A stretch of DNA of 64,000 nucleotides from Magnetospirillum sp. GTDB lineage: Bacteria; Pseudomonadota; Alphaproteobacteria; CACIAM-22H2. The notes beneath the pieces are model-generated. The model was not told the DNA's origin. It worked only from the letters and a program-made list of their open reading frames with translations, and ran no database searches. The position numbers were made by a program, and so were the translations under genes. The first letter of the stretch is position 1. Each line of letters begins with the position of its first letter. The stretch is taken from NCBI GenBank assembly GCA_027532905.1, contig JAPZUA010000007.1:62001-126000 (forward strand), written 5' to 3'. Shown here in pieces: positions 28,626 through 42,445 of the stretch.

Positions 28626-28785
28626 GAGCGATTTTTCCTTTTTCCGGTTGATCCGCCGCGGGACGAGCACCTGCCCCCAAGAAGGGAGACCGGCACCGGA
28701 ACGAGCCTTGGCCTATGGCGCCAAGGACCGCATATGCCCCGCGTGAGGGTTTGTCGTCAGGACACAATGTCCGAACGCGGCGCGG
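28626..28785 (-). promoter_or_regulatory. Structured 5' leader of rpsB
   Basis: About 160 nt between the candidate promoter and the rpsB start form clear hairpins: CCTTGGC/GCCAAGG with a 7-nt loop at 28706-28726, and GGACA/TGTCC at 28760-28772. Ribosomal protein S2 controls its own operon through an mRNA leader in E. coli. A similar role here is inference from position and structure. Confidence 0.4.
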
Positions 28786-38718: not shown

Positions 38719-39180
38719 TCAAGGCTTTGCCAAACCCTGCGCGCGGCAGGCCTCGCGCAGCGCTTCGAGCTCGGGATTGCCGAGCGGTTGGCCGTTATAG
38801 AGCACGCGACCCGAGGCCACGTCCATGCGCACCTCGCCCAATTTGAAATTCGGCTGGAACAAGGGCGACGTCGCGGCAATGCCGTATTTCTTGAGATCGA
38901 CCGCAATGTCGAAGGCGACCGTATCGGGCACTTGGAATTGCGGCGCGGGATTGAGATCGGCCCCCACCACGGCCCGGCCGCGCACATCCACGCCGGGCTG
39001 GTAGGCGACGTCAGGGGCCGGGCGATGCTCGGTCAACACGCGCCGACAATCGGCCGGTGTGGCGCGAATCGGGGCCGGGGTCGGGGTCGGCGTCGGCGGC
39101 TGGGCCGGTGTCTGGGCGAGGGCAGCGACCGAAACGGCCAGCCCGAGTCCCAAGACCGAAATCGCGATCCGTTTGCACAT
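38719..39180 (-). CDS. Small secreted protein of unknown function
   Basis: A 153-residue protein with a signal peptide (about residues 1-22, ending AALAQT). A TPTPTPAP linker leads to a compact domain of about 110 residues with two cysteines (Cys45 and Cys145) that could form a disulfide. The domain includes FDIAVDLKKYGI and EVRMDVASGRVLYNGQPL, suggestive of a beta-rich periplasmic fold. The ATG at 39180 opens the signal peptide. It lies 62 nt before proS in the same direction. I do not recognise a family. Confidence 0.75.
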   Translation of the reverse strand: MCKRIAISVLGLGLAVSVAALAQTPAQPPTPTPTPAPIRATPADCRRVLTEHRPAPDVAYQPGVDVRGRAVVGADLNPAPQFQVPDTVAFDIAVDLKKYGIAATSPLFQPNFKLGEVRMDVASGRVLYNGQPLGNPELEALREACRAQGLAKP

Positions 39181-39320
39181 GAAAATATCACCCTCTACGA
39201 CTGTAAAAGAAAACCACCTCATTCTGGCTTTTTTAAGGGCAGTTGCGCAAAGATCGCGGCAAATGCTGCGGCGCACGCAAGAAGATTTCGTTCGTACACG
39301 GTCAAACGCTCAAAAATATC

Positions 39321-39348
39321 GTGACTCCCGAAAATCTCCCGATATACT
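39321..39348 (+). promoter_or_regulatory. Candidate promoter for a small RNA
   Basis: GTGACT at 39321-39326 and TATACT at 39343-39348 are separated by 16 nt; the -10 matches at 5 of 6 positions and the -35 at 4 of 6. It points into the structured intergenic sequence, and no protein gene follows on this strand. Confidence 0.45.
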
Positions 39349-39354
39349 CGCCGA

Positions 39355-39500
39355 ACTTAGATCCTCGGGTTAAGGGGACGAGGAGTTGTCCGGCGCGCCC
39401 AGCCCGTTTGTTGGGCAAGCGACACGGCCCAAGTTTGGGGAGCGAATTGCAGCCAAGCCCGGTCGCCCATTGAATGGGCACCGGGCTTCGGTGTTTCTAG
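39355..39500 (+). ncRNA. Candidate structured small RNA, unknown class
   Basis: About 145 nt downstream of the promoter-like pair can fold into successive hairpins: TCCTCG/CGAGGA with an 11-nt loop (39362-39384), GCCCA/TGGGC (39397-39416), and a final long stem at 39455-39488. The long stem has 15 base pairs and a single bulged C. Its arms are AAGCCCGGT and ACCGGGCTT with an inner GCCCAT/ATGGGC, and CGGTGTTT follows. The ending looks like an intrinsic terminator with a short T-run. The protein genes on both sides lie on the opposite strand. Direction and transcription are inferred; the hairpin alone could instead be the terminator of the DUF1467 gene. Confidence 0.4.
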
Positions 39501-39529
39501 GGCCTGCGACGGTTACGAACGTGCGGGCT

Positions 39530-39796
39530 TTAGCGTGCAGGCGGGGGCGGCAGTACCAGCGCGTCGCGCACCGGCAGCAAGTCCGACTGAACAACCGCAA
39601 AAATCAGCCCCCAGACGATCGCCGCTGCGAGCGTCGTCCATAGGGCTTTCTTCAGCATCATCGGCTTTTCGGGCGCACCGGTCATTTGGCCGCGCCCGCC
39701 GGGTTCGGTCGTGGGGCGCACGCCGAAGGGCAGGATCGCAAACAGCACGATCCACCAGATCACGAGATACATGGCGATGCCGGTGACGGCGGTCAT
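39530..39796 (-). CDS. DUF1467 family membrane protein
   Basis: An 88-residue protein with two membrane helices (about residues 4-25 and 51-70) joined by a short polar loop with PTTEPGGRGQMTGAP. This fits DUF1467, a small family of alphaproteobacteria found next to methylmalonyl-CoA epimerase. The function is not known. The ATG at 39796 overlaps the mce stop as ATGA, so the two are coupled. Confidence 0.85.
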   Translation of the reverse strand: MTAVTGIAMYLVIWWIVLFAILPFGVRPTTEPGGRGQMTGAPEKPMMLKKALWTTLAAAIVWGLIFAVVQSDLLPVRDALVLPPPPAR

Positions 39797-40197
39797 GCCT
39801 GCTCGAGCTCGACCAGCGTGCCGCAAAAATCCTTGGGATGCAGGAACAGCACGGGCTTGTCGTGCGCACCGATCTTCGGATTGCCGTCGCCGAGCACGCG
39901 TGCACCCTCGGCCTTCAACCGGTCGCGTGCTGCGAAGATGTCATCGACTTCGTAGCACACATGGTGCATGCCGCCCGACGGATGGTCGGCCAGAAACTTC
40001 GCGATGGGCGAGCCCTCGCCCAGCGGATGCAAAAGCTCGATCTTGGTGTTGGCAAGCTCGACGAACACGGTGGTGACCCCATGTGCGGGCATGTCGACGG
40101 GCGCCGACACGCGGGCCCCCAGCGTGCCCGCATAGGTCTTGGTCGCGGCCGCAAGGTCCGGCACCACGATGGCGACATGGTTCAAACGTCCGATCAT
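39793..40197 (-). CDS. mce: Methylmalonyl-CoA epimerase
   Basis: Interconverts (S)- and (R)-methylmalonyl-CoA in propionate and branched-chain catabolism. The 134-residue protein has the VOC fold. Metal ligands are visible: His in LNHVAIVVPD (near residue 6), the histidine pair in MHHVCYEVDD, and Glu in GTLVELEQA at the C-terminus. The ATG at 40197 starts the conserved sequence. It is followed by the coupled DUF1467 gene; the chemoreceptor gene upstream is unrelated. Confidence 0.95.
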   Translation of the reverse strand: MIGRLNHVAIVVPDLAAATKTYAGTLGARVSAPVDMPAHGVTTVFVELANTKIELLHPLGEGSPIAKFLADHPSGGMHHVCYEVDDIFAARDRLKAEGARVLGDGNPKIGAHDKPVLFLHPKDFCGTLVELEQA

Positions 40198-40257
40198 GTC
40201 GCAACAGATAGCACCGGCCCGGCCCCCGATCAATTCCAGGCGATCAAACCCCCGGCC

Positions 40258-42333
40258 TTACGCGGCCTTGATCTTGTCGAGGAAGCCTTCGACCACGCCG
40301 CGCAGCTTGCCCGAATCCGCCGTGAGGCCCGACACAGCATCGATCACCTCGTCGGCCGCCGTTTCGGTCTGCTGGCTCGATTTGGCGACCTCCCCGACAT
40401 TGTCGGTGACTTGCTGCGTGCCGATGGCCGCGTGCTGGACGCTGCGTGCGATTTCCTGCGTGGCCCCGCCCTGCTCTTCGATGGCGGCCGCGATCGCGGT
40501 CGAACTGCCGTCGATGTTGCGGATCGCGGCCGTGATCTCGGCGATCGCGTCGACCGTCTTGCGTGTCGATGCCTGGATGTCGGCCACTTTGCGCGTGATC
40601 TCTTCGGTCGCACGCCCGGTCTGCGAGGCGAGGTTTTTGACCTCGGAGGCCACCACGGCAAAACCCTTGCCCGCATCGCCCGCACGGGCCGCCTCGATCG
40701 TGGCATTGAGAGCCAGGAGATTGGTCTGGCCTGCAATGTCGGAGATCAGCTTCACGACGTCGCCGATCTGCTGGGCCCCCGTCGAAAGATCGTCGACAAT
40801 GCGCGCGGTTTCCTGCGCCTGATCGACGGCCGAGCGCGCGTCTTTCGCACTCGACTGCACGCGCGCGGAAATTTCGCGGATCGACGCGGTCAGCTGCTCG
40901 GTCGCGGCCGCAACCGACTGCACGTTGTTGGTGGCGTCGGAGGCTGCGGCGGCAACCACGCCGGCGTTTTTGCTCGATGCCGCTGCGATCATGCGCATCG
41001 TGTCGGCGGTGTCTTTGAGGCCGTCGGCCGAGCCGCCGAGCTTCTTTAGGATTTCGGCCGCTTCGGCGCTGAGGCCGGCGCACAGCGCATCGAGCGCTTG
41101 CGCGCGCGCAAGCTGCGATTGGCGCGCGGCTTCCTGCGCGTCGGCAAGCTCTTCGGCCTTTGCCGCACTTTGGCGCAGCGTTTCGAGTGCCGCCGTCATG
41201 CGTCCGAATTCGTCGGCATGGCGCCAGGCTGGAACGGCCGTGCGATAGTCGCGCTCCGACAGGCGTCCGATTGCGGGCATCAGCATGGCGATGGGCCGCA
41301 CGAGGCGGCTGCGGATCGTCCAGAACGCGATGCCCGCTAGCGCGAGGGCTGCCAGCAACACGCCCGACTGCGCGATGAGATCGTTGCGCGCCGCCGTCTC
41401 GGCGTCCTGCGCGCGCAAGGTGGCAAGTTCGAGCGCTTTGAAACCGATCGCGACGATCTCTTCGAACGGGTCGTTGCACATCGCCGTCCAATCCTGCGCC
41501 GGCACCACCGCCTGCCCGCCGCCGGTGAGCTTGGCCACCACGGGGTCCATCAGCGAAAAGGCGCGCGCAACTTCGTCCTTGGCGATTTTGGTGAGTGCGA
41601 CGACCGCCTGCGGAATGTCCTTGCGCGCGTAGATTTCGTCGAGCATTTCGAAACCGTTGTTCGAAATGCCGCGCAATTCGCCCAGGCGCTGCTTCTGCGC
41701 GTCGTTCAAAGCCCCGCCCGCCGCCACGATCGGGCGCAGGAACGAGCATTGCAGGCCGAAATTGGAGCGGATGTTCCAGGCGACCTTGCGAATCTGGACG
41801 GCCTCGGCAAAGAACCCGTCGGTGAGCCGCACATCGACCGAAACCGCGTTCGACGCAGCGTCGATCGCCTCGGTCAGTTTCAGCACCTCGTCGTCCCATA
41901 CCTTGAGATTGGCGAGCACGCGCTGATTGCGCGGCTTGGCCATTTCGCGGTCGAGGGCGCCCACTTCGCGCGCGGCAGCGGCCGAAGCGGCGGCCAGCGC
42001 ATCGCTATGGCGCTTTTGGTCTTGGACGTTCAGGGCGGAAAACAGCGCCAGCGAATTGGCGATCAGCCTGTCGTTCTGCGCGCGGATATCGGCGATCGCG
42101 GTTTGCGGCTGATCTTGCGTCTGCAGCAGAGTCTGGATGCGCCCGCGGCTGTTGCGCACAAAGGTCAAGGTCTCGAACAGCGCCTGGTCGGTCTGCGTCA
42201 GCTGCTGGGCGGCGACGCTCGCCTTGTAGCGCGCGGCGGCCCCCCAGATCTGCACGACGCTGAACGCGACGATACCGCAAGCAGCAGCTGCAAAGAGCAA
42301 CATGATGCGACTGGCGACGGACTTGGCACCCAT
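40258..42333 (-). CDS. Methyl-accepting chemotaxis protein
   Basis: Transmembrane chemoreceptor of 691 residues. TM1 is at about residues 8-30, a large periplasmic domain spans about 31-320 and TM2 about 321-341. A HAMP domain (341-395) follows, then a cytoplasmic coiled coil whose hairpin tip reads [20 protein letters not shown] near residues 533-552. The all-helical periplasmic domain is not a recognised Cache or PAS fold. It has two cysteines (Cys196, Cys286) that could form a disulfide. The signalling tip is the standard che-interacting type. A strong ribosome-binding site AAGGAGGG precedes the ATG. It lies beside the binding-protein and amidohydrolase genes and may sense their substrate. 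Confidence 0.93.
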
Positions 42334-42383: not shown

Positions 42384-42399
42384 TTCGTGTACAAACGAA
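42384..42399. promoter_or_regulatory. Inverted repeat upstream of the chemoreceptor gene
   Basis: TTCGT-N6-ACGAA lies in the AT-rich 112-nt gap between the CodA-like gene and the chemoreceptor gene, about 50 nt upstream of the chemoreceptor start. The symmetry and position suggest an operator. No regulator gene is present nearby, so the binding protein is unknown. Confidence 0.3.
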
Positions 42400-42445
42400 A
42401 AAATTCGATGGCGTTTGCGTTACATTTTTTACGGCACCGCCACCC

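Follow-up and report, generated by a model that had tools for sequence, protein, structure and literature searches.

The plus strand of the window (the whole 64,000-nt stretch of a Magnetospirillum sp. contig analysed here) carries at 39355–39496 what sequence comparison suggests is a genuine small RNA gene, conserved, some 142 nt long and outside any Rfam family. Its product is very probably a sponge (anti-sRNA) of the alphaR8/MmgR RNAs, transcribed on its own. The core of this RNA is complementary to alphaR8, and the complementarity is conserved. In the accessible part of the paper on CrfA (PMC12559287), alphaR8 RNAs are reported from all Alphaproteobacteria except Rickettsiales and affect carbon storage and transporters, and CrfA is a proven sponge of four of them, the Caulobacter RNAs SisA–D. 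According to the same part of that paper, CrfA binds their conserved anti-Shine-Dalgarno stretch with the aid of Hfq, lowers the level of SisA–D and frees their targets in carbon starvation. CrfA is the sole alphaR8 sponge in the literature searched, which covered few subscription journals and in which the window RNA is undescribed. If the sponge reading is true, a regulator-plus-sponge pair is used well beyond Caulobacter, and sponges can be sought by computation, from the trans co-variation of two separate RNA genes, with no need for interactome experiments.

The locus and its single-sequence signals

An earlier note on this DNA, made from its letters, had proposed a structured small RNA behind a promoter-like pair with a 5/6 match at −10, with both flanking genes on the opposite strand. 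The promoter is found on the plus strand at the expected place and both neighbours, P153 and DUF1467, lie on the minus strand, as listed below.

38719–39180 (−), P153, a gene without a Pfam family, divergent neighbour
39286–39299 (+), TTTCGTTCGTACAC, a conserved 14-nt box and putative activator site 21 nt before the −35
39321–39348 (+), sigma70-like promoter GTGACT-16-TATACT, −10 matching at 5/6
39355–39496 (+), candidate sponge RNA, about 142 nt, ends inferred from promoter and terminator
39376–39391 (+), 5' hairpin 1, in the minimum-energy and centroid folds; 5' part species-variable in the alignment
39397–39416 (+), 5' hairpin 2, in the minimum-energy and centroid folds; 5' part species-variable in the alignment
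39423–39442 (+), core CACGGCCCAAGTTTGGGGAG, complement of the alphaR8 core CTCCCTAAACTTGGGCCGTG over 20 nt, with one G:U
39455–39496 (+), terminator-like 15-bp stem with one bulge and a weak T-run, from the fold and two-sided pair changes
39530–39826 (−), DUF1467 gene (Pfam PF07330), convergent syntenic neighbour
39793–40233 (−), glyoxalase-superfamily gene (Pfam Glyoxalase_4), next neighbour past DUF1467, which we take to be methylmalonyl-CoA epimerase-like

Between 38800 and 40000, both strands together hold one promoter-like site, where shuffles average 0.3. The hairpins described earlier, the last a 15-bp stem with one bulge and a short T-run, are seen again in the predicted fold: the 3' stem proper spans 39455–39488 with a single bulged C, and the T-run that follows, GGTGTTT, is weak. 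The window's terminator is called neither by a strict terminator rule nor by the rule used across loci (below). The 142-nt RNA folds with a z-score of −2.89 (2 of 200 shuffles as stable) and a 180-nt version with −2.37 (1 of 200), and the predicted fold leaves the core partly free, with a mean unpaired probability of 0.41. Taken alone, these single-sequence signals, promoter and fold, are unusual only to a modest degree; it is conservation across relatives that raises the locus above chance level.

The hairpin lies 41 nt past the end of the DUF1467 frame, as it would if the stretch were a mere DUF1467 terminator or a read-through product. We regard this as scarcely credible, given that the hairpin is followed by no T-run on the DUF1467 strand and that the upstream plus-strand promoter and the core are kept in the genus.

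The earlier note had recognised no known small RNA class here, 6S included, and the Rfam search agrees. No Rfam family describes 39000–39800, where four sub-threshold matches at E ≤ 10 all belong to unrelated families of eukaryotes, archaea or viruses; the best of them, IRES_IGF2 (E 0.01, minus strand of the window stretch), was judged spurious. RF00013 is absent from the stretch, and the 6S gene of this genome lies elsewhere (G000:C1:477386-477542, 62.1 bits). The longest open reading frame from −75 to +85 around the core is 33 to 50 codons long across 11 loci. Elsewhere in the window, Rfam places an rpsB sRNA (RF01815) at 28630–28747 (−), scoring 42.1 bits where the cut-off is 40.

Conservation in the genus

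DNA matches to the stretch were found in 13 of 61 genomes, its own included, at 14 places, and DUF1467 adjoins 11 of these loci. The 11 transcripts from loci beside DUF1467, with inferred starts, were used for alignment and covariation analysis. In this alignment CACGGCCCAAGTTTGGGGAG hardly varies and the 3' stem is preserved, while the length 5' of the core ranges from about 25 to 85 nt as measured from the inferred starts. Of 21 predicted pairs, 7 have two-sided changes, each in at least 1 of the 11 sequences, and all 7 belong to the 3' stem; the RNAalifold covariation term is small (−1.04). The search for compensatory changes in relatives, which the earlier note had suggested as a check, therefore finds 3' stem pairs that alter on both sides, together with a core that co-varies in trans. 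Of the structured small RNA claimed there, a conserved putative gene of about 142 nt is supported; the part that identifies it is the stretch between the hairpins, absent from the earlier note, and not the hairpins themselves.

Complementarity to alphaR8 in the same genome

The alphaR8 RNA of the same genome (L070; G000:C4:331395-331479, RF00519, 52.4 bits) carries the core CTCCCTAAACTTGGGCCGTG and can form 20 contiguous pairs with the sponge candidate, one of them G:U; in the remainder of the window, both strands considered, the maximum is 16 contiguous pairs. Co-folding of the two RNAs gains −28.5 kcal/mol, against a mean of −10.6 and a best of −21.6 for 150 random 108-mers; with shuffled cores the mean is −9.2 and the best −15.5. 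The full-length raw duplex energy is unremarkable (−105.6, while the best of 2,356 window segments reaches −115.0).

Two sub-threshold alphaR8-like RNAs in this genome resemble the same site. In the first, L292 (G000:C1:1272780-1273050, RF00519 33.3 bits), the core is altered to CTCCCCAACTTTGGGCCGG and a hairpin is followed by a T-run; by inspection, 17 of 18 positions pair with the window core. Where a G of the window RNA faces a U of the main alphaR8 as a wobble, L292 has a C, with which that G would pair fully. The second, L293 (31.1 bits), has the first 13 nt of the site in common.

The window RNA has the core of RF00519 (alphaR8, MmgR, suhB) as its reverse complement, on the opposite strand, and in two relatives (L011 and L014) the strand facing this core is where Rfam puts RF00519. 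Within 39000–39800 there is no covariance-model match to RF00519 above the gathering score and none at E ≤ 10.

A class-wide survey beside DUF1467

Among 385 sampled alphaproteobacterial genomes, 268 have DUF1467, and 38 contain the pattern GGCCCAAGTTTRGGGAG, which fits both the sponge core and the alphaR8 complement. We collected 129 regions, each either on the downstream side of DUF1467 or surrounding a known core; the upper part of this list, 110 regions of which a few are shortened at contig ends, was selected by DUF1467 alone. A 15-nt core with at most 2 mismatches is present on the DUF1467-convergent strand of 30 of the 110 regions and on the other strand of none, and the reversed pattern is found in none. 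At up to 3 mismatches the counts are 40 on the convergent strand versus 4 on the other, with 5 and 8 for the control, and since the controls also score there, this level is noisy. The 30 core-bearing regions represent 20 of 63 families, or 18 after removal of the two families (f4 and f100) in which G025 and G121 have alphaR8 at the locus; among the 18, f16 and f52 are ambiguous. The core is not universal beside DUF1467, as 80 of the 110 regions are without it at 2 mismatches. An Rfam search of 20 DUF1467 loci at E ≤ 0.1 gave a single match, to RF00519, which lies on the other strand of L177 and scores 36.2 bits.

Two genomes of family f19 (G040, locus L144; G269, locus L142) have a 3-mismatch core beside DUF1467 and no alphaR8 was found in them. 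In both, the one match to the predicted-partner pattern is the element itself, and in two more genomes of the family the pattern matches elsewhere; f19 was excluded from the pairing counts. Of 12 contigs from another search, the two of Phycisphaera type (L082 and L085) were judged unrelated on inspection, and three more (L077, L078 and L086) were set aside as alphaR8-like on the other strand. As a side observation, the best alphaR8 match of one genome (L074, G001:C423) adjoins a DUF1467 gene 45% identical to that of the window, compared with 73% for the DUF1467 at the sponge locus of G001; this contig may be foreign.

Trans co-variation with alphaR8

Of 61 core-bearing genomes, 2 without alphaR8 were dropped, and 4 (G138, G025, G121 and G316) were kept out of the pairing counts because alphaR8 occupies the same locus. 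This left 55 genomes from 26 families: 35 from the DUF1467-only regions, 7 of them just at 3 mismatches, and 20 that had entered for carrying the core (17 regions and 3 loci away from DUF1467). The partner was the genome's own alphaR8, in its best-fitting copy where several were at hand. The 15-nt core forms all 15 pairs with it in 48 of the 55 genomes, 14 in 4, 13 in 2 and 12 in 1. The case with 12 pairs (G180) is possibly a chance match; one with 13 (G003) was scored against a paralogue, and its other alphaR8 has the full core; one with 14 (G373) contains an N. Real mismatches with alphaR8 occur in G226, G142, G145 and G115.

When each family is represented once, 382 of 390 positions are paired, compared with a mean of 371.4 and a maximum of 378 in permutations that assume independent families, and none of 20,000 reaches the observed value. 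With three ambiguous families removed, 337 of 345 positions are paired, again reached by none of 20,000 permutations. The per-family differences from exact complementarity comprise 36 transitions that keep a G:U pair, 5 transitions that break the pair and 5 transversions. Treating families as independent, which the binomial test also assumes, the 36 of 41 transitions that keep G:U give p = 4e-8, and without the position at which the search had allowed either base, 26 of 31 do so (p = 3e-6).

Compensatory changes on both sides are found at core positions 7, 8, 12, 13 and 15. At position 8, A to G in alphaR8 is met by U to C in the sponge (G031, G164, G267 and G023); at position 12, U to C is met by A to G (G012, G037, G181, G088 and others); at position 13, G to A by C to U (G196); and at position 15, G to U by C to A (G400 and G234). 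Position 7 has one two-sided change (G142).

This tracking of alphaR8 across families, by G:U pairs and compensatory changes, and the 20-nt length of the pairing also bear on whether the RNA might act in trans mainly on mRNAs, with the alphaR8 complementarity secondary. CrfA was itself first described as an mRNA activator, according to the accessible text of PMC12559287. The window core resembles a ribosome-binding site and not the complement of one, and on this evidence, which covers alphaR8 as the target, we consider a mainly mRNA-directed role highly unlikely.

Promoters and terminators were sought at the same 55 loci. By a promoter rule that was written post hoc, after several loci had been viewed, 41 of 55 have a promoter on the sponge strand; its mirror on the opposite strand has 6, and shuffles average 5.55. 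Terminators by rule number 31 on the sponge strand, that of the window not among them, 13 on the other strand and 1.3 in shuffles. A GCAAG..CTTGC terminator hairpin, recognised by eye, is common to several families, which suggests common descent.

Loci with alphaR8 on the other strand

In four genomes from four families, RF00519 matches downstream of DUF1467 on the other strand, with 45.5 (G138), 42.1 (G025), 36.2 (G121) and 49.7 bits (G316) against a cut-off of 41. In G138, G025 and G316 no better alphaR8 copy than this locus was found, and G121 is 84% complete. On visual inspection, the sponge strand of G138 and G121 also has a promoter-like pair, together with a GCAAG-type hairpin that a T-run follows. 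At 10 of the 55 loci a hairpin and T-run were called next to the core on the other strand, 6 of these loci being in f16, f52 and f135 and 4 in the genus of the window; in the three named families the other strand can be read as an alphaR8-like RNA, and both strands look usable.

These loci are what one would expect if the minus strand encoded an alphaR8 paralogue, its core being simply the alphaR8 core, and the plus strand were no RNA gene. One locus (L036) scores exactly at the RF00519 cut-off (41.0 bits). At 39000–39800 of the window there is no RF00519 match at E ≤ 10, nor is there one at E ≤ 1 in L006, L010 and L012, three of the four genus loci just mentioned, and on the minus strand the window hairpin has no T-run after it. 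The minus strand there reads CTCCCC, whereas the core of the alphaR8 partner has CTCCCT in all 55 genomes; CTCCCC does occur in some alphaR8-like RNAs (L292 and, by inspection, L077, L078 and L086). A paralogue would further predict that about half of the transitions keep G:U, against the 36 of 41 observed in one strand sense, and the promoters by rule favour the plus strand (41 versus 6 of 55). We therefore judge a minus-strand paralogue very improbable at the window and retain the sponge reading, with the addition that the sponge may have begun as an antisense transcript of an alphaR8 copy at the DUF1467 locus.

Proposed mechanism and relation to known sponges

In the mechanism that we propose, alphaR8 would repress mRNAs through its CUCCCU anti-Shine-Dalgarno stretch, and the sponge core, mimicking a ribosome-binding site, would pair with CUCCCUAAACUUGGGCCGUG, which comprises this exposed stretch and the 5' arm of the alphaR8 terminator. 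Pairing would probably take place on Hfq, and the flanking hairpins would serve as scaffold and terminator. alphaR8 would be blocked or destabilised and its targets derepressed. By analogy with CrfA, the inducing signal could be carbon limitation.

The window RNA is likened to CrfA of Caulobacter crescentus by the described function and site, not by CrfA sequence or synteny. In both, a Shine-Dalgarno-like G/A-rich stretch is complementary to the conserved alphaR8 core, and a single sponge would face several alphaR8 siblings. The two differ in the site covered: the second stem-loop of CrfA binds the 10-mer UUUCCUCCCU (SisA G33–C45, in the part of PMC12559287 available), whereas the window RNA covers just the CUCCCU of UUUCCUCCCU plus 14 nt into the alphaR8 terminator arm. 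QrrX, SroC, 3'ETS-leuZ and AgvB/AsxR, as presented in the same portion of that paper, are likewise sponges that sequester regulatory small RNAs but have other targets and occur in other taxa; SroC and 3'ETS are described there as processed fragments (PMC12559287), whereas the window RNA appears to have its own promoter.

A broader reading, which we put forward as a conjecture with the balance somewhat against it, is that the RNA belongs to an undescribed and ancient alphaproteobacterial sponge family, retained next to DUF1467 in many bacterial families and maybe antisense-born, with the Caulobacter CrfA circuit as a single instance of a two-RNA switch that spans the class.

A conserved box upstream of the promoter

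The putative activator site at 39286–39299 recurs with the promoter. In 10 of the 11 genus-search loci beside DUF1467, the sequence that best fits the box stands at a distance of exactly 21 nt from the −35; 5 of the 10 are exact, 4 agree in 12 of 14 letters and 1 in 11 of 14. The −10 TATACT is common to 10 of the 11 aligned loci; the eleventh locus (G015), from another genus, has neither the box nor TATACT.

In the 4.26-Mb genome of the window, TTTCGTTYGTACAC has 3 mismatch-free copies and the reversed pattern none. The copies lie at 39286–39299 (+) and 42387–42400 (−) of the window and at G000:C7:39571-39584, and the three sites possibly form a small regulon. The second precedes an MCP-domain receptor gene (40258–42333), 53 nt from its start, and another copy lies 54 nt before a frame that, judged by eye, resembles fumarylacetoacetate hydrolase.
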